This document shows positions 23,137 to 60,612 of a stretch of DNA of 64,000 nt, piece after piece. Location of the stretch: positions 3,552,501-3,616,500 of the forward strand of contig NZ_CP096670.1 of NCBI RefSeq assembly GCF_023238625.1, written 5' to 3'. The position numbers were made by a program, and so were the translations under genes. Numbering within the stretch: the first letter of the stretch is position 1; every line of letters begins with the position of its first letter. Source of the DNA: Agarivorans sp. TSD2052 (GTDB taxonomy: Bacteria; Pseudomonadota; Gammaproteobacteria; Enterobacterales; Celerinatantimonadaceae). Under the pieces are notes generated by a model. The model was not told where the DNA came from, searched no databases, and saw only the letters and a program-made list of their open reading frames with translations.

Positions 23137-26100
23137 CTATTGCGCAACAATCGTATATTGCATGGTGGTGTCATTCACCTCAACAAGGTAACTGCCTACC
23201 ACTTCTGTGAAGATGTCTCCACCGGACGGATCTAACACTGCATCATTGTTGTTATCACCAAAGTTAGTTGACCAGTCACCATTTACATCAAACTTAAAAC
23301 GTTGATCATTTTGGCCATCAAAACTCACCGTAGTTCGCCAAGTGTTATCAGCCACTAATGTCATTGCCGTGGTTTGCCAATTATTGGCAGTACCACGGAA
23401 ATATAACTGAGCTAAGTTAGCCGTATAATTAGCGTTAGGGTCAACCACTTCTACCACTACCGATGCTTGGCCGATTTTACCTCCATCGTCAGTCACTGTT
23501 AGGCTCATGTCGTGTGAGCCTGGCGTGCTGTAAGTAACCGTAGTGGTTTCGCTTACAGAGCCATTACTCCATAGGTAACCGGTAATAGTACCGTCACTAT
23601 CACTAGAGCCAGCAGCGCTGTAAGTAATGCTTTGACCAATATCTACCTGAGTCGCAGAGGCGCCAATAATTGCGCTTGGCGCTTGGTTTGCGTTCAACTC
23701 TGTAAGGCTATACGCCAAAGTTTGATCGTTCACTTCAACCAAATAAGAACCTGATACCGTAGTGAAGATATCTCCACCCGTTTGCTCTAATACTCCATCA
23801 GCGTTGCTATCACCGTAGTTTTGGCTCCAGTCATTGCTCACATCAAACTTAAAGCGTTGATTAGCTTGACCATCAAATTCAACCACTAACTGCCAAGTAT
23901 TATCGGCAACCAAGTTCATCGCAGCTGCAGCCCAACCGTTTGCAGTACCACGGAAGTTAAGTTGATTGAAGTTTTTAGCGTTCTCATCACTTTCCACCGT
24001 TAATACTGCTTCAGCAGTAGCGGTGGCGCCTTCATTGTCGGTAACCGTTACGCTCAAGGTTTTAGACACATCAACAACGACCTGGATACTGCTCGTCGTT
24101 TCACCGGTACTCCACAAGTAGCTGGCAATAGCTCCATCTTCATCACTTGAATCCGCAGCACTTAAGTTTACGGTAGTTCCCACTGCAACGGTTTGGCTCG
24201 CAGGTGAAATACTCGCTACAGGCGCTTTATTAGGTACAACCGTTAAGGTTACTGAAGTATTCGCTGTTTTTCCTTGGTTATCACTCACCGATAGGCTAAT
24301 GGTTTGAGTCTCATTAACGGTCACTGAAATTGACTCGGTAGATTCTCCCGTACTCCAATTGTAACTAGCAATGGAACCATCACTATCAGTCGAACCCGCG
24401 CCACTTAGCGTTAGCACTGTGCCTTTAGCCACTGTTTGGCTAGCAGGGCTAATGCGTGCAACCGGAGCCACGTTTGAGTCTAAACCATCTGGAATACCCG
24501 CAGCAATAGCACCCGCAGCAACATTCCAGCTGCCTTCTTCAACCTGGTAGTTTTGACCACCGTTACTGTCCCACACCCCATTACAATTATTGGCAGCAAA
24601 CTCTAGTTGGCTTCCATCTTCTAAATCAACCGTTAAGCTATACCAGTTGTCAGCCAAACTGTGCATTGGATCGCCTGGCGCAGTTGTCCAAGTGATTGCG
24701 CCGTCTATAGTGTAGTGCAAACATACTTGTCCCCAACCACTATTGTCTTGGTAATAAAGAGTCGTAGTTACCGACTGGCCAATGATACGGTAAGTGATAC
24801 TGGTTGACGCTTTTTGCCCGACACTGTCGGTTACCGTAACTGATACGGTTTTACGTTCATCAAGAGTCAGAGTAATCGAAGGGGTCGTTTCGCCAGTGCT
24901 CCATAAATAGCTAGCAATGGGGCCTTCTTCATCGCTAGATCCTGCAGCGCTTAAGGTCACTACAGTGCCTAAGTCCACGTCACCACCAACCGCATCAATC
25001 ACCGCCACAGGACGTTTATCACCAATAACCACAGTATCGGTAAAGAATACCGCTTCGCCCGCAATCGCGCCGTTTACGTCTTCAACGGTTTTTCCGCCTA
25101 CACTGCTAAACTGACCAGCCCCCACATACACTTGCTGAATGTCAGAACGGGTAACATTCCCCTTACTATCAGTGGCTTCAATGTAGTAATCCAATAACTG
25201 CTCTTGGTATTGATCAATGTAGGTGAAATACATGTTGCCGATTTTTTCAGCGGGCACCACTTCAAACATTTCTTTACCAGAGGGTTGCCAATCTACACCA
25301 TTAATATCTCCGCTTAAGTCACGCTCGTTCATGCTGAAGCTTTGCCATTCACCCACTCTAGAGGGGTCAACATTTGGATCGGTACTATGCGCACTAGGGT
25401 CATATAACTTAAAGGTTTTATCGGTAGCCGTTGCCCATTTGTCTTTGTGCACTCGAACCTTGACTTGAATGTCCTGAATATTGCTCACATCATAGCCGTA
25501 GGTGTAAATAGCAAACTTGGTATCGGCATAAACCGTTGCCCACCCTTCCGCTTTACTTGAGTTGGCACTGCCGGGGTTATAAGGATAACGTTGCGGCCAC
25601 CAAAGAGACGGGCCGGTTTTATCTTGGCTAATATTGGCGTTTACGTAAGGTGTAGTGAAATGCAAAGACTGGTTAAACGAAACCGTCGGTTTTACACCAT
25701 CATCAACATTCTCGTCGTAGTAACCAAAGCCTGAATCAATAGAAGCAAGTAAGAAATACCAGCCTAATTCAGCAGGGTTTGCCCCACCCGCGTAGTTGTT
25801 GTTGACGTCGCCTTTTACTGGAAAAGACATCATCCAGGGGTTTAATTGATTACCTGGGTAGGTCACTTCATTATCGCGAGCGGTACTTGGGCTCCAATAA
25901 TTTGGATTATTGTCCAACCAAATTTGCTCTGCGGTTTTAGCATAGTTTTCTGCGGCCTGTAATAAAGCAAAGTTGCGCTCTAAATAATGGTAACCGAGTT
26001 CAAGCGACACCATATGCTCACGACTAGCGACAAAATCAGTGCCATTAGCTGTATTAAACTCGGCCATTTGGCCACGCCAAACCCCCATAGGAATATGCCA

Positions 26101-51539: not shown

Positions 51540-51839
51540 GCACTGCGTCGTAATCTGCCACTGCTGCCCAATAATGATTAACATGTCTTTTGTTAATCAT
51601 TGCTGTGGTTCAGCATTGGTTTGTCGCCCCCCAGCAATCCAACCTCTTAACGCCTAAAGAAAGCCGATGACCAAGGAAGACATTTATGTTTTCTGATTGA
51701 CGATTAAAATCACCTGACAGCTGTAAACAACAACAGACTCTGATAACACTTTATATTCCTCCTTAACGCGGCTTTTCGGCTAACAGATTGGTAACTTTCT
51801 TTAAAAGCACTAGGCTTTACAGTTAAGCAAGGGGGCTTC
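51540..51839. other. Intergenic region after the response regulator, with an 11-bp inverted repeat
   Basis: 300 bases. The inverted repeat AATGATTAACA / TGTTAATCATT with a 7-base loop lies at 51573-51601, 34 bases after the response-regulator stop; there is no T-run behind it. The rest must hold the promoter of the PP-loop pair. Confidence 0.45.
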
Positions 51840-52979
51840 ATGAAGATTTCTTCCATTCGCACAGAGCAGCATTCGGGCTACTCCATTTTACGCGCAAACT
51901 GTAACGGCTTTGACTTGTGGTACAAGTTTCCAGAAAACGTGCCGCTCACCAACAGTGCCGACCCCTTCATCGCTGCTAGTTTATTGATTAGCATGGCGAA
52001 CAATCAAGACATCGAGCTAGAAAGTAGCGCCTACTATTCTCCCAAACTTGTCGAGAATTTAGAGCAACTACAACGCATTTTTAGTCATTGGCAACCCTAT
52101 CTAGGCCATCGCTTATACCCCGTAAACATTATTGGCGGCACTCCCTGCGAACAAGCCAATACATGCAACGATACGGTCTCTTTCTTCTCAGGAGGAATCG
52201 ATGGCACCTACACCTACAAGCAAAAACAACAAGAGATAGACTACTTACTGTTTGCTAAAGGTATCGACATGCAACTCAACAGCGATGCGCTTTACCAACA
52301 AGCATTCGCCTGCAATAAACAATACCTAGCAAAACAAGGCAAGCAACTGATCCCTTGTGAAACCAATGTGAGATTTTTAGGCTATAAAAACAAACTTAAT
52401 TGGGGGGTATGTTTTGGCGGTGGTTTATCTAGCATTGCCTTAGCGCTTGGCGTTAAGAAGTGTTTTATTGCGGCAGGCTTGACCTATCAAAACAACATAC
52501 CTGAAGGGTCAAACTATATTACCGATCGTCTCTGGAGTAACCAGCATACCCACATTATCCATCATGGTGCGAATACTCGTAGAATTGATAAATTAAAAAC
52601 CTTAGCCAATGACCCCGATTACTTGGCCATTTTGCGAGTATGTTGGCACGATGATGGCTACAATTGCGGCGAATGCGAAAAATGCCTACGAACCATGAGC
52701 AGCCTTCGCACTTTAGGCATTCACACCGACACCTTCCCCACTCTCACCGACCAAATGGTTAAGCAGAAACTCAGCGGCTTAAAGCTCTACAATGTGCACG
52801 ACTTGCAATTTTTAGACGAAAATATAGAGCAAGCCAAAGCCATTAACGACACCGTAATGATTAAGGCTTTAGAACATATAAAACGAAACTTCCAACTACG
52901 GGAGCTTGCAAACCAATTTGATGAACTCATTTTACATGGGTATGCCCACAAACTTAAGCAAATGGTTATACGGCATTAA
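51840..52979 (+). CDS. QueC-like PP-loop ATP pyrophosphatase paralogue 1
   Basis: 379 residues; I do not know a named family. The PP-loop of ATP pyrophosphatases is at residues 116-126 (SFFSGGIDGTYTYK), but the usual SGGxDS has Gly in place of the final Ser. A zinc-type motif C-x7-C-x2-C-x2-C followed by L-R-T (CWHDDGYNCGECEKCLRT) lies at 267-284, similar to the Cys motif of QueC, the 7-cyano-7-deazaguanine synthase. FGGGLSSIALALGV near 197 fits the middle of the nucleotide-binding fold. AGGGGG precedes the ATG. It forms a tandem pair with the next gene. An ATP-dependent adenylation, amidation or thiolation of a small molecule is possible; no function is claimed. Confidence 0.75.
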   Translation: MKISSIRTEQHSGYSILRANCNGFDLWYKFPENVPLTNSADPFIAASLLISMANNQDIELESSAYYSPKLVENLEQLQRIFSHWQPYLGHRLYPVNIIGGTPCEQANTCNDTVSFFSGGIDGTYTYKQKQQEIDYLLFAKGIDMQLNSDALYQQAFACNKQYLAKQGKQLIPCETNVRFLGYKNKLNWGVCFGGGLSSIALALGVKKCFIAAGLTYQNNIPEGSNYITDRLWSNQHTHIIHHGANTRRIDKLKTLANDPDYLAILRVCWHDDGYNCGECEKCLRTMSSLRTLGIHTDTFPTLTDQMVKQKLSGLKLYNVHDLQFLDENIEQAKAINDTVMIKALEHIKRNFQLRELANQFDELILHGYAHKLKQMVIRH

Positions 52980-52984
52980 GCCCT

Positions 52985-54232
52985 ATGCGCATCCATCAGC
53001 TTGAGCTAAAAAAACACGCTAAATACCAGAAAATATCTGCCATGTTAGGGCCGTTTCCATTGTGGTTTAAAACCAGTAGCGACTGCTTAATAGCCTGCAA
53101 CGATGCCAGCCCCTTTTTATGCTCAGCACTCATACCCGCGATGTTTTTAGGCGAAGATATCGAGATTGATCGGCAATATTATGTATCGGCAAGCTTGCTA
53201 GAAAAGCTGCCACACATTCAAACCATCATGCACGCTTGGAACCCCATCTTTAAGCGCATTAAAATATCGGCCACCAGCCAAGCCTTTCATACCTCTACCA
53301 CCCAGCTTGGCCACAGCGCTTTTTTTTCTGGTGGGGTCGACGGCACCTACAACCTTATCCAACATGCCAATAGGCTAGACAACCTAGTACTGATTAATGG
53401 TTTTGATTTTTCAATGCCGCTTGCCTCTTGGCAACACTTAGTAAACCGTTGCCAAAAAACCGCTGATTTATTCAATAAACGGCTGATATGTGTTGAAAGC
53501 AATTTAAAAGAATTTACCGGATGGACAGGCCTAGCTCGCTTTGCCAACTTTGGCGCATCTTTAGCCAGTGTTAGTTTACTACTCAACCCTAACAGCATGA
53601 TTTTAAGTGGGGCGGTAACCTACGACGCCATTCACCCATCCAATAGTCACCCCTTGCTAGACCCGCTTTGGTCTACTGAATCATGCCAAATTTTGCACCT
53701 AGGTTTAGAGGCTGACCGCGCCGCCAAAATTGCCGTAATTAAAGGCAAGCCAGAGGCACTAAATAACTTATGGGTATGCTGGAAGGATCCACGCAGTAAC
53801 TGCGGACGCTGCGCCAAATGTTACCGCACCTATATGGCTATGCAGCTAAACAACATCTCTAACTTTCACTTTTCACAGGTTGTTAGCCATTCAGCAATAA
53901 AACAACTAAGCCCCAAAAGCGAAGAAGACTTATCGTTTTACGAGTACCTGCATCGCTTGGCCATTAAGCAACAACACCACAGTTTACGCCGAGTACTTCG
54001 TAACATTATTTTACGCTATCGGTTTAAAAGCGTTATCCGCGACACTGAACGACTATTGCTTAACTCGGCATGGAGTCAATGGCGACAGAGCAAATTAAGC
54101 CACCAGCAACTGGCCGATGTGAGTGTATTCCCCAAATACAGTGACGCTATCCAACTAGAGCGTTTGCATCAACGCTTAAAGCAAAACCCCCGATTTATCT
54201 CTAGCGCCAATATCGGCAGTGTATTTGATTAA
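52985..54232 (+). CDS. QueC-like PP-loop ATP pyrophosphatase paralogue 2
   Basis: 415 residues, a diverged paralogue of the gene before it, five bases away. It shares the same layout: FSGGVDGTYNLIQH at about 114-127 with the same Ser-to-Gly change in the PP-loop, FGASLASVSLLLN at the middle of the fold, LLDPLWSTES matching ITDRLWSNQH, and CWKDPRSNCGRCAKCYRT with identical Cys spacing at about 264-281. The C-terminal 110 residues are helical and basic, longer than in paralogue 1. No good ribosome-binding site is visible, so translation may be coupled. The two could act as a heterodimer (inference). Confidence 0.75.
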   Translation: MRIHQLELKKHAKYQKISAMLGPFPLWFKTSSDCLIACNDASPFLCSALIPAMFLGEDIEIDRQYYVSASLLEKLPHIQTIMHAWNPIFKRIKISATSQAFHTSTTQLGHSAFFSGGVDGTYNLIQHANRLDNLVLINGFDFSMPLASWQHLVNRCQKTADLFNKRLICVESNLKEFTGWTGLARFANFGASLASVSLLLNPNSMILSGAVTYDAIHPSNSHPLLDPLWSTESCQILHLGLEADRAAKIAVIKGKPEALNNLWVCWKDPRSNCGRCAKCYRTYMAMQLNNISNFHFSQVVSHSAIKQLSPKSEEDLSFYEYLHRLAIKQQHHSLRRVLRNIILRYRFKSVIRDTERLLLNSAWSQWRQSKLSHQQLADVSVFPKYSDAIQLERLHQRLKQNPRFISSANIGSVFD

Positions 54233-54538
54233 ACGCATGTAGTTTCGGCGACACTAAGCAGCAAACAAACTCCTGCTTACTCTTAGCTTTAGTAAGCTCA
54301 AACCAACAAAGCACTGTGATTGTATACACGTAAATTGCTTTTCTTTCTTTCCCCAAATGCATTCCGTCTTTATTGATGATATTTTTATTACTTTTAGAGC
54401 TAGATGGCTGATGTAGTTTAGGAAAGGTGGTAGTCTGCTTTTAATCATATGAATAAAGAGGCTGTGATTTCCATGTTTAAGCAAGGAAGTGATCTTCCCC
54501 CGATAAAGTAGACACGGGTTAAATTTCAGGAGGTAATA
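54233..54538. other. Intergenic region before the FRG-domain gene
   Basis: About 300 AT-rich bases. The right 50 bases hold an IS3-type terminal sequence and the ribosome-binding site of the FRG gene. An apparent 98-codon minus-strand ORF here has no family resemblance and is not called. Confidence 0.4.
54490..54519 (+). mobile_element. IS3-family left terminal inverted repeat, remnant
   Basis: TGATCTTCCCCCGATAAAGT followed by AGACACGG closely resembles the left end of IS3 (as I recall it, TGATCTTACCCAGCAATAGT then GGACACG). In IS3 elements the transposase gene begins shortly inside this end. Here no transposase follows; an AGGAGG and the FRG-domain gene do. No matching right end was found in the window. 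Confidence 0.55.
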
Positions 54539-55261
54539 TTGAAGATTCACAATGTGTCTAGTTTTTCTGAACTACACGAAATACTGTCGGTTTACCGCAA
54601 ATCCAATCGTTGGGTTTTTCGAGGGCACGCCGACCCACATTGGGTTTTGACACCTAAAGCAGGGAGAGAGCCCTACAACAAATCTGATGACCTGACAATT
54701 CTTCAAGCCTGGAAAAGGCGAGCTGTAGAATATGTTACAAATGCTCCTGAAAATGATTGGGATTGGTTGGCAACAGCACAACATCATGGCTTGGCAACTA
54801 GGCTATTAGATTGGAGCTACAATCCTATGGTTGCCGCGTATTTCGCTACCACACATCAGTATGAATCTGACTCTCATATCTATTGCTATAAACCTCATAA
54901 GATACTCATTCCACAACATGTCCCCCCCAAAGACTACGATAGCATTTCGCTATTTAAGCCAAATGGTGTCGTCCCAAGAATTGCAAGGCAAGGTGGTGTT
55001 TTTACAACTCATGGTCAACCCAATAAACCTTTAGGAGAGGTTTTACATTACGAAGACGAGCTTGAATTAATCGTTATTGATAAAAATTATGTCAAAGAAC
55101 TAGGGTTCGAACTGAATCACTATGGCATAAATGATGCTTTTACATTCCCTGACTTAGACGGCTTGTCAAGGCACGTAAATTGGTACACGGAGAATCAAGA
55201 CTATTGGGTCGCACAAGCTCTCACCCTTGACGATGCGTCTAACATTTCGTCCAACAGTTAG
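54539..55261 (+). CDS. FRG-domain protein
   Basis: 240 residues. The FRG domain (named for its Phe-Arg-Gly motif) is clear: NRWVFRGHADPHWVLTPKAGR at about 21-41 and AQHHGLATRLLDWSYNPMVAAYFAT at about 81-105. The rest (YKPHKILIPQHVPP; LHYEDELELIVID) is typical of these proteins. The biochemical role is not settled; they are common next to mobile elements and defence genes. The start is TTG, set by a strong AGGAGG five bases before it. The small membrane protein gene follows 36 bases later, perhaps in the same transcript. The preceding IS3 end suggests acquisition by transfer. Confidence 0.85.
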   Translation: MKIHNVSSFSELHEILSVYRKSNRWVFRGHADPHWVLTPKAGREPYNKSDDLTILQAWKRRAVEYVTNAPENDWDWLATAQHHGLATRLLDWSYNPMVAAYFATTHQYESDSHIYCYKPHKILIPQHVPPKDYDSISLFKPNGVVPRIARQGGVFTTHGQPNKPLGEVLHYEDELELIVIDKNYVKELGFELNHYGINDAFTFPDLDGLSRHVNWYTENQDYWVAQALTLDDASNISSNS

Positions 55262-55297
55262 TTTCCTCTAAGTGAGATTTCATGAAGAATATATGGT

Positions 55298-55573
55298 ATG
55301 AATCACGTAAATAGAAAAGAAAAGAAAAATTTCACTTTCAGTATTTCTCTCATTATGTCTATCTTTCAAGCGACAGTTTTATTGGAATTGGCAAATGTTG
55401 ACGGTTGGGGAGCTATAGGTGCAGCTGGTGTAGGAGCTATATTTGGCATAGCCAGTATACTTATAGTTATAACACTCTTTTTATTTGGCCTTAGAAGGCG
55501 CGAAAAATATATTACCTTAGGCTTAATTTCAGTCGTAGTTTCTTCGATATCGGCATTTAGCTTTTTCACCTAA
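55298..55573 (+). CDS. Small membrane protein of unknown function
   Basis: 91 residues with three hydrophobic helices (about 12-32, 38-64 and 70-91), separated by the charged RRREKY loop. The N-terminus is basic (NHVNRKEKKN). I recognise no family. It follows the FRG-domain gene at 36 bases on the same strand and may be its partner. Coding status is supported by the coherent membrane pattern, but the ribosome-binding site is unremarkable. Confidence 0.55.
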   Translation: MNHVNRKEKKNFTFSISLIMSIFQATVLLELANVDGWGAIGAAGVGAIFGIASILIVITLFLFGLRRREKYITLGLISVVVSSISAFSFFT

Positions 55574-55677
55574 CTTTTAATAAAAATCCATTTAGCTTAT
55601 GACGAGGCTGAGTCACTTCGTTATCTAAGCCCTTCTTTCCAGATACATGCCTCCTACAGTTTGAACTTAACTGCTAA

Positions 55678-55776
55678 CAAAGCTGCGCCAGTTTTGGATA
55701 GTCTGGCACGTTAGTACCGGTTGGTGTCCATTGTACCCGTGCATCGCTGCGGTAAAACTCCACCAAACCACCCTAG
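55678..55776 (-). pseudogene. Fragment of a second glpV copy (about 99 bases)
   Basis: This stretch matches 60914-61011 inside glpV with about ten substitutions and one inserted base. Read in the glpV frame it encodes the same peptide, GLVEFYRSDARVQWTPTGTN then VPDYPKLAQL, so the visible changes are synonymous. Homology stops abruptly on both sides, and the frame reaches TAG right after AQLC. It is therefore a cut-off piece of a diverged but once functional copy. Confidence 0.8.
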
Positions 55777-55793
55777 CCCACCGATGAAACTTC

Positions 55794-58700
55794 TTACAGC
55801 CTCGTAACTTTACCTTCTTGGCTTTGTTTTGAGCGAGATAATGAGCTCGGCCCTTGACCATGTTGTCTCGCATCAAAAGTATAAACCGTGGTCGACTCAC
55901 CAGCGTAGTCAACGATAACTTCATAACAAGGAAAATACTGGTGTTCCGCGGCGACAGACACCCTCAGTTGACCATGCTCCCAATTGAAACTCACTTCAAA
56001 CAGCGCGTGAACAGAGCCAAGACCAATTCGGTCGACTACGGCGGTAAACACATCTTTTAAGGGCAACTCAAAGTCCACATAATCGCCTAACTTTATGGTG
56101 CTCTTCATTTCGCCAAAACTCGCGCCATCATAAGGTGCGTAAGGCCGCGCCCCTAACACTGCCAAAGTCAAAGTCCTTCCGTTGGCCCCTAGCTCTAGCA
56201 GCGATTTGTCGTCAAGATGAACGTCGGTTTTATCGAATACCGTCGCGTCAGCCTCCTTACCTTCAGCCCACCAAACGTCACCAACATCCCCCGTAGAGTC
56301 TAACTGCGTATATAAGCCTGGAGTTCCAAAGGCCTTATTTTGTTCTGTCACTTGCCTAATTTCGCCCGTCGCCTTATTCAACTTAACTTGGGCGCTCAAC
56401 TCGAACATGGAACCGATACCCTGGGCATCACCTTCGCTAAACCCTCGGTCATCGCCTTCAAATCGGAATATTGCTCGTAACAAATCGGCGCACTCAGTGT
56501 TGCCAAGCTCACTTTTGGCTACCGCTTTATCCCAGCCCTCACTGATCAACGTCGTGATAAAGTCTTTCATATCGACCAAAGTGCTCGCCACGGATGTGAC
56601 TGACATTTCGTTTATATCAAAGGCGTTTGACAGAGCCCATAACTGGCTGGGCACAAAGCCCCTTAGCGTGACATTTACGGTTTCCGTTTGTGTTCCACCA
56701 CGTCCAGCTCCGCCACTCCCTCCTGAGCCACCACCTGAAGCGCTTCCCGCCCCGGCATTTGCGCCTGCATTAGCTCCTGATCCTGCACTAGCACCAGCAC
56801 TAGCACCGGTAGCAACGTTAGTTTCATTGTTCGCGGCATTGGCATTTTGGTTATGGTTATTGTTTTGACTAGAATTCTCACCATTAAAGGCATTTTGATT
56901 ACTGTTATTAATTCCCAACCCCTGGTTAATTCCCGCTCCCGCTTCTGTCACATTGCTAGGATTGGCTAATGGACCAGATGGCTTGGAGTTAACACTGGCC
57001 AACACATCGGATACTTGTTGACCTAGCGAAACCGCACTATTTAAAGCATCACTGCGCGCATCGCCCGCCAGTGTTCCAGCGTGTTGTGCGGTTTGCAGTG
57101 CCACCTCGGCCAAGGTAGATAAAGTTGAGCTTAATAAGGCACTGCCTGAAGCATCGCGGAATAGTCCTGGCGTGCCCAGTGCGGCTAACGTCGCGGCGGC
57201 GGTCTGTGAGTTGGGCAAAGGCGTGGGCGGCATAATGCTGAGATTGCCGTCGGTTACCGTGGCATTCATATCGGGGATACCGCTGTCACGGCTCCCCGCT
57301 TGAATGGCGGCTATCTCTGAGGCTGTGTGCGGGATAGGCGAGTCTTGCCAATTGAAATAACGACTGGCATCTATCTTCTCTGCGCTATTTGCCCGCCCTA
57401 GTATTGCTTCCCCAAAGACACCGGCCGAAGGAAGATAAATGGTGTCGGTAACGCGCTGTTGGCCAATGAGATCTACAAAGCTGCTACGCAGTGTTCTTAA
57501 ATAACAGTCGATGCTTGAACGTAAAGGATGAGGCTCGGCAACAGCGGGGCTAATGACGCCCTCTAAGTCATAGTGGGTCACTTTACCCTGATTCAGAAAC
57601 TCACTATAAAGCTCAAATTTAGTGTCCTGCCAATCCAAGCTAACCTTGTGAAGTGAAATGCTTAGTTCTCCGTCAGGGCTAGGTTCTCGGATAAAGCCAC
57701 TTCCCTGATAACTCGGACCTTGGCCATGCAGCCGTAGGGTAATTTCTGCAATGATGTCATCACTGCTGCGCTCCGCTGAAGACATCAACTCTATTTCTAT
57801 TTGACAACACTCTCCCTGCTTTCGTACTTTTATGCGCCCAGATAGTGGCCGATTAAAAGAAGCTTGCTGATCCTTACCGTGAACCGTACTCACGGCTTCA
57901 CTCAGCACCAAAGACTGCTCTACCGCTTGTTGTTCCGACTGATGAAGCTTAAGAATGATGAAGTTCTCGGTGAAGCCCACCGGTGTGGCGGAAGCCAACT
58001 CCATCAAGGGTAATGGTGGATGAAGATCCGATTGGATGTGGAGACTTTCTAGCACCGCACTTAACTGCTCGCGTTCGGTCGTAAAAATCAATAAACGCGT
58101 AGCAGCATAACGCTGTCGATTAAAAAACAACTCAATCTCTTTAATGTAATCCAAGGGGACAATGCTCGCTTGCTGCTCAAGCGCACTAATCACTTCAGAT
58201 TTCAAATCAGAAAACAGTACTTTAGAGTCCCGAGCAAGCGAAGTATGCGGGACGGATAGACTCACCTTAGTTTGGTCCCCCCCCTCATCGACTATGGTCA
58301 TATCCAATTCAGCTTTGATAAATTGAATATGAGATAAATCCGGGCTACCTGCTACTGGAGGTAAAACAGCCGTCACTTCCAATGAAACTAAGTCACCCAA
58401 GCGCATGCGGTCGCGACCACTGAAATCAACATCGCGAGATATTTTAGGCCCGAGTCCCGTCACCCGGTGTTCAACCGAGCTACTGTTACGGTAGATCAAG
58501 GCCCAATGACTATCTTCAAGGGTGACAATATGAGCGGTGATCGCCGTAACAGAAAGATCGCTGCTGATATCAATCACTTCTGTCGAATAATCAGGCCGCT
58601 CTATGATTGAAGCAAAACGCTGATAGAGCCGTGCTGAATCCTGTTTCACTAAGGCTTGCAATACCCGCCAATGGGCACGGATAAACTCGAAGTCAAAAGT

Positions 58701-60065
58701 GATGGGGCGATAGGGCAAGTACATGATCGGGGTGTAATCGAGCGTATCTATTTCTACTTGATACTTCTGTAGCACCTCAAAATATTGCACGGTTAAGGCG
58801 TGCATATGATTGTAATTGGTAACATTACGGGTAGTGATTTGCTCAGATTCTTGTTGTTCATCGGTCACCACCACCGAAGAGCGAATAGAGCGCATTGATG
58901 AGGCGTTTTGCACGCTGCGGTCGGTAATGTTCTGCTGCAACTCAGACACCAGTTGCCGGGTAGAGTTGGTCTCGGTTTGCACCACCCCTTCTTGAGCCAC
59001 ATGCGAAAACACTGCAGAGCCCCCTGCACCGCCAGCGCTGGATAAAATACTGGCAGCAGAGAGGTCTAGATCCATCGGAATACCGGTCAGCTCTTTGAGT
59101 GGCAAGGTGCCGCTGGCGCTGCCCCCACCGGAGCGTCCACCTCCGACACCGGCAGACAAACCAGTACCCACCGAGCTGGTAGAGGCCTCGCTATTGGTTT
59201 GCCCACGTTGATGCTCCAAAGCCGTAGCTTGAGTCACTTCATCTAGGGCCCGAGTGTGGGTCATGCTATTGCTTAGTTGCTCGTCAATCCGCGTGGTCTC
59301 GCCTCTACTAGAGCTTTGTTTGCGATACCAGTCAATCACGGCAATATTGCGCGACTCGCCGGGTGCTAGCGCCAACGAGTGAATAACCTCGCCTAAATGT
59401 GTCCCCATGTTGCGCCAATATTGCTTAAGGTGAACAATGTATCCAAGATAGAAACTTAGCGGTGGCTTTTGTTCCATGAGCGCCGACACGCTTTCACTCA
59501 TCAACTGGCCGGCAAAGCTATTATCAGAGCTTTGAGCATCTATGCGTAACCCTTGCAGTTGATATCTCTGTCCCTTCACGTAGCTAGAGAAACGAACGCT
59601 ACTATGAGTGCTACCAATCATCCCAGGCATAAGCTCATCAGGCGCAGAAGGGGCCTCATCGAAGCCTTGTTCTGGTTGCTTTAAATAATGCTGAGCGGCA
59701 TGATAAAGCCCAAACTCTGCCAGTTCATTAATTGACACAATACCGAAGAAGCTTTCCAAGATTTGCGCTGACATAGCGCTTAGTTCGCGCAAGGAATTTG
59801 GAGGTAAATAACCAACGGCAGACGCTTCAACTACAGCAAACTCGTCCTTCAAGTAGGCCGCCCGCTCTATATGGTGATTAATCAAACCTTGGCTATATGC
59901 TTTTAGAATCTGGGCATAGTGAACAGGCTTAAAGTGCAATAAATCGCTCACCGAGAAGATATTTATTTGCCGCAGCGCTGCTATATCGCCATGGCTAATC
60001 CCCGGCAGTGACTCCAGAGTAATCAACGGATCCATCATTCGAGTAAAGCTGGAAGAGCGTGACAT
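55794..60065 (-). CDS. Giant protein of unknown function with Gly/Ala/Asn-rich linker
   Basis: 1423 residues, not recognised. The first 45 residues resemble a helix-hairpin-helix (LPGISHGDIAALRQINIFSVSDLL). The segment MGTHLGEVIHSLALAPGESRNIAVIDWYRK (about 235-262) leads into a long coiled-coil-like Ser/Thr/Gln region with Gly-rich patches (about 300-350). TTRNVTNYNHMHALTVQYFEVLQ (about 400-425) is followed by MYLPYRPITFDFEFIRAHWRVLQ. A low-complexity Gly/Ala/Asn/Ser linker spans about 1045-1125, and a beta-rich C-terminal domain follows. No signal peptide or membrane helix is seen. RBS AGAGG precedes the ATG. It stands alone between a glpV fragment and the glpV operon. It could be a large structural or surface-associated protein; I make no functional claim. 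Confidence 0.7.
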   Translation of the reverse strand: MSRSSSFTRMMDPLITLESLPGISHGDIAALRQINIFSVSDLLHFKPVHYAQILKAYSQGLINHHIERAAYLKDEFAVVEASAVGYLPPNSLRELSAMSAQILESFFGIVSINELAEFGLYHAAQHYLKQPEQGFDEAPSAPDELMPGMIGSTHSSVRFSSYVKGQRYQLQGLRIDAQSSDNSFAGQLMSESVSALMEQKPPLSFYLGYIVHLKQYWRNMGTHLGEVIHSLALAPGESRNIAVIDWYRKQSSSRGETTRIDEQLSNSMTHTRALDEVTQATALEHQRGQTNSEASTSSVGTGLSAGVGGGRSGGGSASGTLPLKELTGIPMDLDLSAASILSSAGGAGGSAVFSHVAQEGVVQTETNSTRQLVSELQQNITDRSVQNASSMRSIRSSVVVTDEQQESEQITTRNVTNYNHMHALTVQYFEVLQKYQVEIDTLDYTPIMYLPYRPITFDFEFIRAHWRVLQALVKQDSARLYQRFASIIERPDYSTEVIDISSDLSVTAITAHIVTLEDSHWALIYRNSSSVEHRVTGLGPKISRDVDFSGRDRMRLGDLVSLEVTAVLPPVAGSPDLSHIQFIKAELDMTIVDEGGDQTKVSLSVPHTSLARDSKVLFSDLKSEVISALEQQASIVPLDYIKEIELFFNRQRYAATRLLIFTTEREQLSAVLESLHIQSDLHPPLPLMELASATPVGFTENFIILKLHQSEQQAVEQSLVLSEAVSTVHGKDQQASFNRPLSGRIKVRKQGECCQIEIELMSSAERSSDDIIAEITLRLHGQGPSYQGSGFIREPSPDGELSISLHKVSLDWQDTKFELYSEFLNQGKVTHYDLEGVISPAVAEPHPLRSSIDCYLRTLRSSFVDLIGQQRVTDTIYLPSAGVFGEAILGRANSAEKIDASRYFNWQDSPIPHTASEIAAIQAGSRDSGIPDMNATVTDGNLSIMPPTPLPNSQTAAATLAALGTPGLFRDASGSALLSSTLSTLAEVALQTAQHAGTLAGDARSDALNSAVSLGQQVSDVLASVNSKPSGPLANPSNVTEAGAGINQGLGINNSNQNAFNGENSSQNNNHNQNANAANNETNVATGASAGASAGSGANAGANAGAGSASGGGSGGSGGAGRGGTQTETVNVTLRGFVPSQLWALSNAFDINEMSVTSVASTLVDMKDFITTLISEGWDKAVAKSELGNTECADLLRAIFRFEGDDRGFSEGDAQGIGSMFELSAQVKLNKATGEIRQVTEQNKAFGTPGLYTQLDSTGDVGDVWWAEGKEADATVFDKTDVHLDDKSLLELGANGRTLTLAVLGARPYAPYDGASFGEMKSTIKLGDYVDFELPLKDVFTAVVDRIGLGSVHALFEVSFNWEHGQLRVSVAAEHQYFPCYEVIVDYAGESTTVYTFDARQHGQGPSSLSRSKQSQEGKVTRL

Positions 60066-60612
60066 AAGACATATTCCTCTTATCTCGCATTAAATACGGG
60101 CTGTCATAGAAATGTTAAAGAGAGCTACAAGACGCCACACCGCTAAGTCGTGAGAATACTGACGAAAGCTGAGCCCAAGCTAAAAATAAACTAATAGCTG
60201 ACAAAACCTGAATAGGCTAATAGAAGCAGCTTTTTGTTAATGAGTTTATCCCCAGGTCTGTAAAAAATGGTGCACAGGCTTGGCCAGCCTTAAGGCAAGC
60301 GCAAGCCAAAACACCACAAAACTCATCACTGTGAACTTAGGGTAAGTTTGGTAAAGCGCCTCTCAAGAAAAGGGTCTGATACAGTTTTTTGCTTTAGAAG
60401 GAAGTTGGCTGAGAGTGTAAAGGTTGGGAAGGTCAAAAATATAAATTCTATAGAAAAAGAAATAGCAAGACTGCAGTTACGTGAGCCCAACAAAGACAGA
60501 AGGAGACCTATAAAGGCACACGAAGAAAGATTGAATAAATATACCTAGCAAGTTCAAAAGTGTTGACTCTTATTTAAAACCAGACTTGCTATTTATCCCA
60601 ACTTTAAAAGCT
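60066..60612. other. Intergenic region between the giant gene and the glpV terminator
   Basis: About 550 bases. It holds the upstream region of the giant minus-strand gene. A 66-codon basic plus-strand ORF with a TTG start at 60348 has no ribosome-binding site or family match and is not called. I see no other structure. Confidence 0.35.

Follow-up and report, generated by a model that had tools for sequence, protein, structure and literature searches.

Why would a bacterium that encodes a true QueC also carry, 1.8 Mb away, two adjacent genes for QueC-like proteins whose PP-loop is altered in the same way? The question is raised by genes A and B of Agarivorans sp. TSD2052, which lie in the window analysed here, a stretch of 64,000 nucleotides (positions 3,552,501 to 3,616,500 of contig NZ_CP096670.1). 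By predicted fold and by loop, A and B are members of the PP-loop/HUP ATP pyrophosphatase superfamily. None of the four libraries searched has a model for their family, with the possible exception of phrog_1550, and part of the family is linked to genes for polysaccharide pyruvyl transferase (PF04230). We tentatively favour, as a real possibility, that A and B act together on surface glycans, activating carboxyl groups with ATP to form amides.

A tandem pair with an altered PP-loop

The pair comprises the following features.

51840..52979, + strand: gene A, a 379-residue PP-loop protein of the A-type clade (open reading frame list, alignment, AlphaFold, tree, Foldseek)
52985..54232, + strand: gene B, a 415-residue PP-loop protein of the B-type clade (open reading frame list, alignment, AlphaFold, tree, Foldseek)
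51829..51835, + strand: probable Shine-Dalgarno sequence of gene A, AAGGGGG, 4 bases upstream of the ATG, with a putative function
52188..52211, + strand: altered PP-loop of A, S117-GGIDGTY, the final Ser of SGGxDS replaced by Gly122 and followed by Thr123
52641..52685, + strand: QueC-type zinc site of A, C268-x7-C276-x2-C279-x2-C282, putatively metal-binding
53327..53350, + strand: altered PP-loop of B, S115-GGVDGTY (sequence)
53777..53821, + strand: putative zinc site of B, C265-x7-C273-x2-C276-x2-C279 (sequence)
54104..54229, + strand: C-terminal tail of B, 42 residues past the end of A (alignments of A and B)

The sequence-only reading of this locus had described two adjacent open reading frames of these lengths sharing SGG[IV]DGTY and C-x7-C-x2-C-x2-C, and both motifs are indeed present, the loop differing from the SGGxDS of most PP-loop enzymes and the zinc site being followed by LRT in A and by YRT in B. 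Five bases separate the stop codon of A from the start of B on the same strand and no clear Shine-Dalgarno sequence was seen upstream of the start of B, whose translation is likely coupled to that of A. Counts of promoters and terminators around the pair were close to shuffled means. Homology extends along almost the full length of the two proteins (26% identity, E 7e-43), so that their common motifs are not a matter of chance. The tail of B is conserved in the B copies of three other genomes of the genus (G002, G004, and G005) and is mostly of low confidence in the AlphaFold model.

Predicted fold and nearest relatives

AlphaFold models, built from alignments of the window proteins and proteins of related loci only, are good for A (predicted local distance difference test, pLDDT, 89.1; predicted template-modelling score, pTM, 0.87) and fair for B (pLDDT 82.0, pTM 0.78), and both display a HUP fold. 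Neither model gave a Foldseek match in the PDB at E<=0.001. The top ranks were mostly PP-loop enzymes (carbapenam synthetase, MnmA, QueC, argininosuccinate synthetase, ThiI, and LarE), and for both models QueC had the highest target-normalised TM-score among the matches listed, with values for 2pg3/3bl5 of 0.52/0.56 for A and 0.61/0.60 for B. Two viral structure models matched A at E<=0.001, an unnamed protein and a TilS-like one, and a phage QueC came just behind.

Profile comparison with hhalign aligned the family to QueC with a probability of 97.0 and a score of 76.7 over 172 columns that cover both the loop and the zinc site, the site of A being collinear with that of QueC. The other families reached 82.6 (MnmA), 43.9 (GuaA), 26.3 (WbuX), 15.8 (ThiI), and 4.5 (ArgG), each over 22-69 columns from the loop, with thinner profiles of 4-5 sequences each versus 13 for QueC. 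QueC is thus the nearest of the six families compared. The models, the Foldseek ranks, and hhalign agree on the PP-loop fold with a QueC-like zinc site that had been proposed for the pair.

A family apart from QueC and other catalogued enzymes

A hidden Markov model (HMM) of the family gave 65 hits, and 60 rows entered the tree. Left out of the tree were L040:98-613 (a fragment), L046 (a duplicate), L040:804-2009 (a near-duplicate), L027 (the truncated B of genome G001), and L043:14820 (the DUF6395 protein). In L039 the open reading frame picker kept a longer antisense frame, so that its Azospirillum member is missing, and the tree is also without the members of G809, G818, G1019, and nine further plasmid-record loci. 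The PP-loop pattern [ST][AGCS]GxD[SGA] is found in 60/60 rows, A and B included. The exact SGGxDS loop occurs in 22 of the 60, while A and B read SGGxDG; the last loop residue varies in the superfamily too (SGGLDT in 4/4 ArgG). The QueC-type motif C-x7-C-x2-C-x2-C of A and B has a spaced variant in 59/60 rows. In A numbering, G119, D121, R248, C268, N275, C276, C279, and C282 are invariant in 53 rows, and S117, G119, D121, R248, K251, and all zinc cysteines in an 18-row alignment.

Like QueC, the family combines the PP-loop/HUP fold with the loop and then a C-terminal C-x(7-8)-C-x2-C-x2-C, in the same order. Unlike QueC, it has an extra N-terminal region of about 110 residues, is in part linked to glycan genes, has lost the loop Ser in A and B, and lacks the QueC substrate motifs. 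The motifs YxQxHxxE, VPxRN, and YPDC, given for QueC beside the loop and the zinc motif in PMC13329287, occur in 0/60 family rows versus 13/13 QueC proteins (from 14 loci, of which L113 yielded no open reading frame; 7 are from the window genus). A and B do not match PF06508 in Pfam at E<=1, and 5/53 members do so at E<=0.01 (best E 2.1e-4). The true QueC of the window genome is encoded at G000:C1:1762217-1762831. On the absence of the substrate motifs and of a PF06508 match, and with this separate QueC, we rejected A and B as true QueC proteins. A second 7-cyano-7-deazaguanine synthase, for tRNA or DNA, would agree with QueC being the nearest profile, but the same motif counts and the QueC already present make it very improbable. 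A function outside tRNA modification, as suggested earlier, is therefore probable, QueC being the one queuosine gene searched for.

Libraries (Pfam, NCBIfam, PADLOC, and PHROGs) were scanned with 53 members picked by hand. In NCBIfam and PADLOC no match was better than E 0.001 (best TIGR00364 match, E 0.0022; QatC matched by 1/53 members in each, best E 0.0096 in NCBIfam and 0.0028 in PADLOC), and sequence searches of Pfam, NCBIfam, PADLOC, and the PDB with A, B, or their profile gave only sub-threshold matches. Matches to phrog_1550 ('QueC-like queuosine biosynthesis', moron category) were found in 32/53 members (best E 9.3e-9). Its length is similar (418 positions), but the match spans only 27-63 residues around the zinc site in the eight members examined. 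DUF6395 (PF19932) matched the zinc-site half of 10/53 members weakly (best E 3.9e-5), and across 28 member genomes its cut-off is passed only by a third member of the window genome, copy C, and barely (25.5 versus 25 bits; 24.1 in another scan). DUF6395 is a distant relative of the family, although one such protein from Priestia reaches E 9e-8 with the family HMM and has the loop SGGVDSTA. That protein (L043:14820-16154), a distant PP-loop relative, is encoded on a plasmid that also carries a tandem pair, and the region matched by Pfam DUF6395 (231-403) does not include its loop (residue 111).

The N-acetyl sugar amidotransferases WbuX/WbpG (TIGR03573) resemble the family as PP-loop enzymes of surface polysaccharides. 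Unlike the family, 5/5 WbuX proteins lack a C-x(6-14)-C-x2-C-x2-C site. The profiles overlap by 22 columns only, and in 28 genomes no member locus was among the TIGR03573 matches at E<=0.001, the 203-bit cut-off being passed by other genes in three of these genomes. WbuX identity was rejected on these three points. As far as its available text goes, the 2026 PF06508 survey (PMC13329287) stays within PF06508 and includes one surface-polysaccharide branch, WbpG, placed in cluster 5; words beginning with 'polysaccharide' and the word 'pyruvyl' are absent from that text.

Linkage to polysaccharide pyruvyl transferase

The family is sporadic, with members in 10/369 class genomes and 9/398 phylum genomes (E<=1e-10) and in 17/394 order genomes (E<=1e-20), in overlapping samples that each include the window genome, and it is found on chromosomes, plasmids, and viral contigs. 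Where no Pfam, PHROGs, or record annotation is stated, the identity of a neighbouring gene was judged by eye. Counting one genome per genus by gene midpoints, with the window genus represented by copy C and A and B excluded, a PF04230 gene lies within 5 kb of a member in 8/20 genera versus 0.11 expected (P ~9e-15); two further genera have one at ~13-17 kb and ten have none near. Copy C itself lies ~3 kb from a PF04230 gene and adjoins a flippase-like gene (by eye). On plasmids, a PF04230 gene adjoins a member or its tandem copy in 12/15 records and 4/6 genera. This was not so for Halosolutus, Nostoc, and one 2.6-kb Priestia record that lists two genes.

Two arrangements speak for a partner rather than for shared life in a cluster. 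The first is a fusion, a 753-residue open reading frame in G235 (L068:8663-10924) that joins the PP-loop domain to PF04230 (401-608, E 1.1e-12). In the second, found in 7/7 Azospirillum records, PF04230 and a member stand together with no other annotated polysaccharide-synthesis gene in the stretch; a multicopper oxidase gene lies upstream on the same strand, ~225 bases away in six records. A divergent unfused paralogue adjoins the fused frame.

Some other neighbours would fit amide formation on glycans as well as a different product. Pfam identified Asn-synthase and ATP-grasp-type domains in L096 and ATP-grasp-type domains in L074 and L077, with a sub-threshold match in L041 and none in the scanned neighbour L097:12052-13242; a PF13480 acetyltransferase lies near members in L095 and L097, and non-ribosomal peptide synthetase genes lie near both Gloeothece members. 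The pair might accordingly make a free small molecule, an amide or peptide-like product, with glycan genes as mere frequent neighbours, and the Azospirillum unit, being outside any annotated polysaccharide cluster, would agree with this. The recurrent partner, however, is PF04230, which is also fused, and glycosyltransferases or flippases stand in many Proteobacterial neighbourhoods (by eye, uncounted); we regard a small-molecule role as unlikely. As a separate observation, L096:7574-12863 holds four successive genes with likely ATP-using domains, two of them members, one Asn-synthase-like, and one ATP-grasp-type.

Nine viral contigs carry members, L045 and L046 encoding the same protein. Tail, virion, or lysis genes lie near the member in six of the seven viral loci scanned for neighbours (L045, L047, L048, L050, L051, and L052, not L049), a set outside which L044 and L046 fall. 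Surface-altering genes are common at such viral tail and lysis spots, and the members found near tail, virion, or endolysin genes are possibly surface-altering morons. A phage collection gave no match to A at E<=0.01, and two scans of viral contigs with single member proteins recovered only the queries themselves.

An old pair with a patchy presence in the genus

The tree places A and B in two sister clades. In the A clade are the first copies from three other genomes of the genus, two singletons of Thalassotalea (L001/L002; these two loci were what a contig scan of genomes with A alone found), and one G632 gene; below it join a second G632 locus (L098) and one G716 gene, both with Ser in the loop. 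The B clade comprises the second copies of the genus genomes, the other G632 gene, one G716 gene, and a G541 singleton (L097). The A and B sides together form one starred set of 16 rows (support 99/96), with support of 100/92 for the B side and, for the A side, of 95/75, which becomes 97/88 when the long-branched G716 gene is left out. An A-type gene adjoins a B-type gene in G632 (L095) as in the window genus, and in G716 (L096) a B-type gene adjoins the long-branched sister of the A type; both stretches carry glycan-type genes (by eye). Separate adjacent pairs of family members occur in G235, G475, and Priestia.

Because A and B belong to separate sister clades and their counterparts also lie side by side in two other genera, the pair is old rather than the product of a recent duplication. 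The sequence-only reading fared unevenly here. Its tandem duplication with a shared Ser-to-Gly change does not hold, given the sister clades, the existence of singletons, and Gly or Ala at the loop position in 24/60 rows, whereas its expectation that homologous pairs would recur is borne out by the A-type/B-type adjacency in the window genus, in G632, and, with the A-type sister, in G716. Members are thus not always found alone with a routine function. A heteromeric A-B enzyme would be compatible with this recurring adjacency.

The pair is present in 4/7 genomes of the window genus. In G001, A is lost and B is without its N-terminal part, its frame being open through the loop and its first start codon lying after it. 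G006 lacks the pair and has the upstream regulator gene, and in G003 the regulator and the pair are both absent.

The altered loop and selection

At the changed loop position the 60 rows have Ser in 36, Gly in 15, and Ala in 9, and the distribution of Ser and non-Ser requires four changes on the tree. Thr or Ser follows directly in 17/24 non-Ser loops versus 1/36 Ser loops (Fisher 1.4e-8, counted on rows), a pattern suggestive of a one-place shift of the hydroxyl. The Ser-to-Gly loop is thus probably still functional, judging from these sequences, with the hydroxyl often one place further on. Selection on both genes is purifying: the ratio of nonsynonymous to synonymous substitution rates (dN/dS) is 0.077 for A (one unsaturated comparison of six) and 0.058-0.091 for B (three unsaturated of six), and 0.078 for the neighbouring regulator gene.

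The same position raises the possibility that A and B lack catalytic activity or have a regulatory function, with the loop still binding a nucleotide or a partner protein and one or both proteins serving as structural subunits or regulators. The Ser-to-Gly change in both proteins would fit, as would the drift of the following residue among the A copies of the genus (GTY, GSY, and GYH, thus T, S, or Y) and the need for the equivalent Ser, plus a second one, in QatC (PMC13279940). Against this stand the purifying selection, the invariance of S117, G119, D121, R248, K251, and the zinc cysteines in the 18-row alignment, and the occurrence of Gly/Ala loops in singletons and in viral-contig genes that have no companion member in the sequence read. 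We consider such a role somewhat unlikely.

The window neighbourhood

The genes upstream of the pair encode a histidine kinase, a LuxR-type response regulator, and, further away, a protein with a periplasmic binding protein domain (Pfam). Downstream, at 54539-55261, an FRG-domain gene matches PADLOC PDC-S15 (E 2.8e-69) and is a candidate defence gene. From 54233 to 60600 the gene content differs among same-genus genomes (L024, L025, L026, and L027) up to a shared transporter gene, which marks a variable spot. The open reading frame at 55794-60065 (- strand, 1423 residues) is rich in Gly, Ala, and Asn in places and matches nothing in Pfam at E<=1; its comparison with the 1418-residue frame at 23137 gave no real match.

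This surrounding could mark a defence spot. Together with the QueC-related fold, the PDC-S15 match and the downstream variation among the same-genus genomes compared would fit an anti-phage system that conjugates a nucleobase or a protein, akin to QatC (qatABCD) and Cap9 (type IV cyclic oligonucleotide-based anti-phage signalling system, CBASS), in which a QueC-derived scaffold has a non-tRNA role according to PMC13329287 and PMC13279940. Unlike these proteins, however, the family has neither the QatC motif D(x)4R(x)7WxR (0/60 rows, with no QatC positive control) nor a significant profile match; none of the 53 members has a convincing match to QatC, Cap9, or QueC, QueC motifs are found in 0/60 rows, and by eye no FRG gene was seen beside the pair in G002, G004, and G005. 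An anti-phage role is accordingly rather improbable. As an identity for the family, Qat/CBASS was rejected on the missing motif and profile match.

A proposed role in surface-glycan tailoring

Gene linkage, the fusion, the viral-contig setting, and the QueC-related fold together point to ATP-dependent carboxyl activation in surface-glycan tailoring. A and B would represent a QueC-related family of PP-loop ATP pyrophosphatases that differs from QueC in its substrate pocket and in having an additional N-terminal domain. As in QueC or asparagine synthetase, a carboxyl group on the glycan or on its precursor would be adenylated by ATP, and a nitrogen nucleophile would displace AMP to yield an amide. 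In part of the family the partner would be the polysaccharide pyruvyl transferase, making a carboxyl-bearing ketal on a sugar. As old, diverged paralogues, A and B would probably form one complex or catalyse two consecutive steps. In the window genus the pair lies away from the polysaccharide cluster, which retains copy C with its Ser loop (SAGVDSF).

Several points weigh against this proposal. The pair is dispensable in the genus, as seen in G001, G003, and G006, and we know of no biochemistry for any family member. Among the genera compared, 12/20 have no PF04230 gene within 5 kb of a member, and copy C of G006 is ~24 kb from one. Part of the linkage may reflect no more than a shared location in polysaccharide clusters. 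Beside the window pair there is no PF04230 or glycosyltransferase gene (Pfam on six neighbours, the rest by eye). Of the two PF04230 genes in the genome, one is found at 568 kb and the other at 4131 kb, and the pair is at 3604 kb; because it has no such neighbour and both genes are at least 0.5 Mb away, the glycan role is attributed to the pair by family extension only. In QatC, the matching Ser helps to hold the beta and gamma phosphates and an S156A/S161A double mutant loses defence (PMC13279940). The shift to Thr or Ser amounts to about four independent pairs, for which a sign test is not significant (median p 0.25), with none in the opposite direction.

A more specific form of the proposal, a two-step module in which a pyruvate ketal is added and its carboxyl is then amidated or converted to a nitrile by a heteromeric A-B enzyme, with the neighbouring Thr replacing the phosphate-binding Ser, seems to us doubtful and rather a long shot. 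In searches of one open library of papers we found nothing on amidated or nitrile-converted pyruvate ketals of glycans, nothing relevant that joins polysaccharide pyruvyl transferase with QueC or PP-loop enzymes or PP-loop amidotransferases with exopolysaccharide, and nothing on DUF6395 or on QueC-like PP-loop proteins under those names.

A and B fall outside PF06508, the scope of the 2026 survey, and constitute an unnamed branch beside the QueC-like enzymes. The family's loops with Gly or Ala in place of a phosphate-contacting Ser would test what a PP-loop truly needs. The fusion and the Azospirillum gene duo offer a testable hypothesis for the family, that of a glycan tailoring which would join pyruvylation to carboxyl activation.

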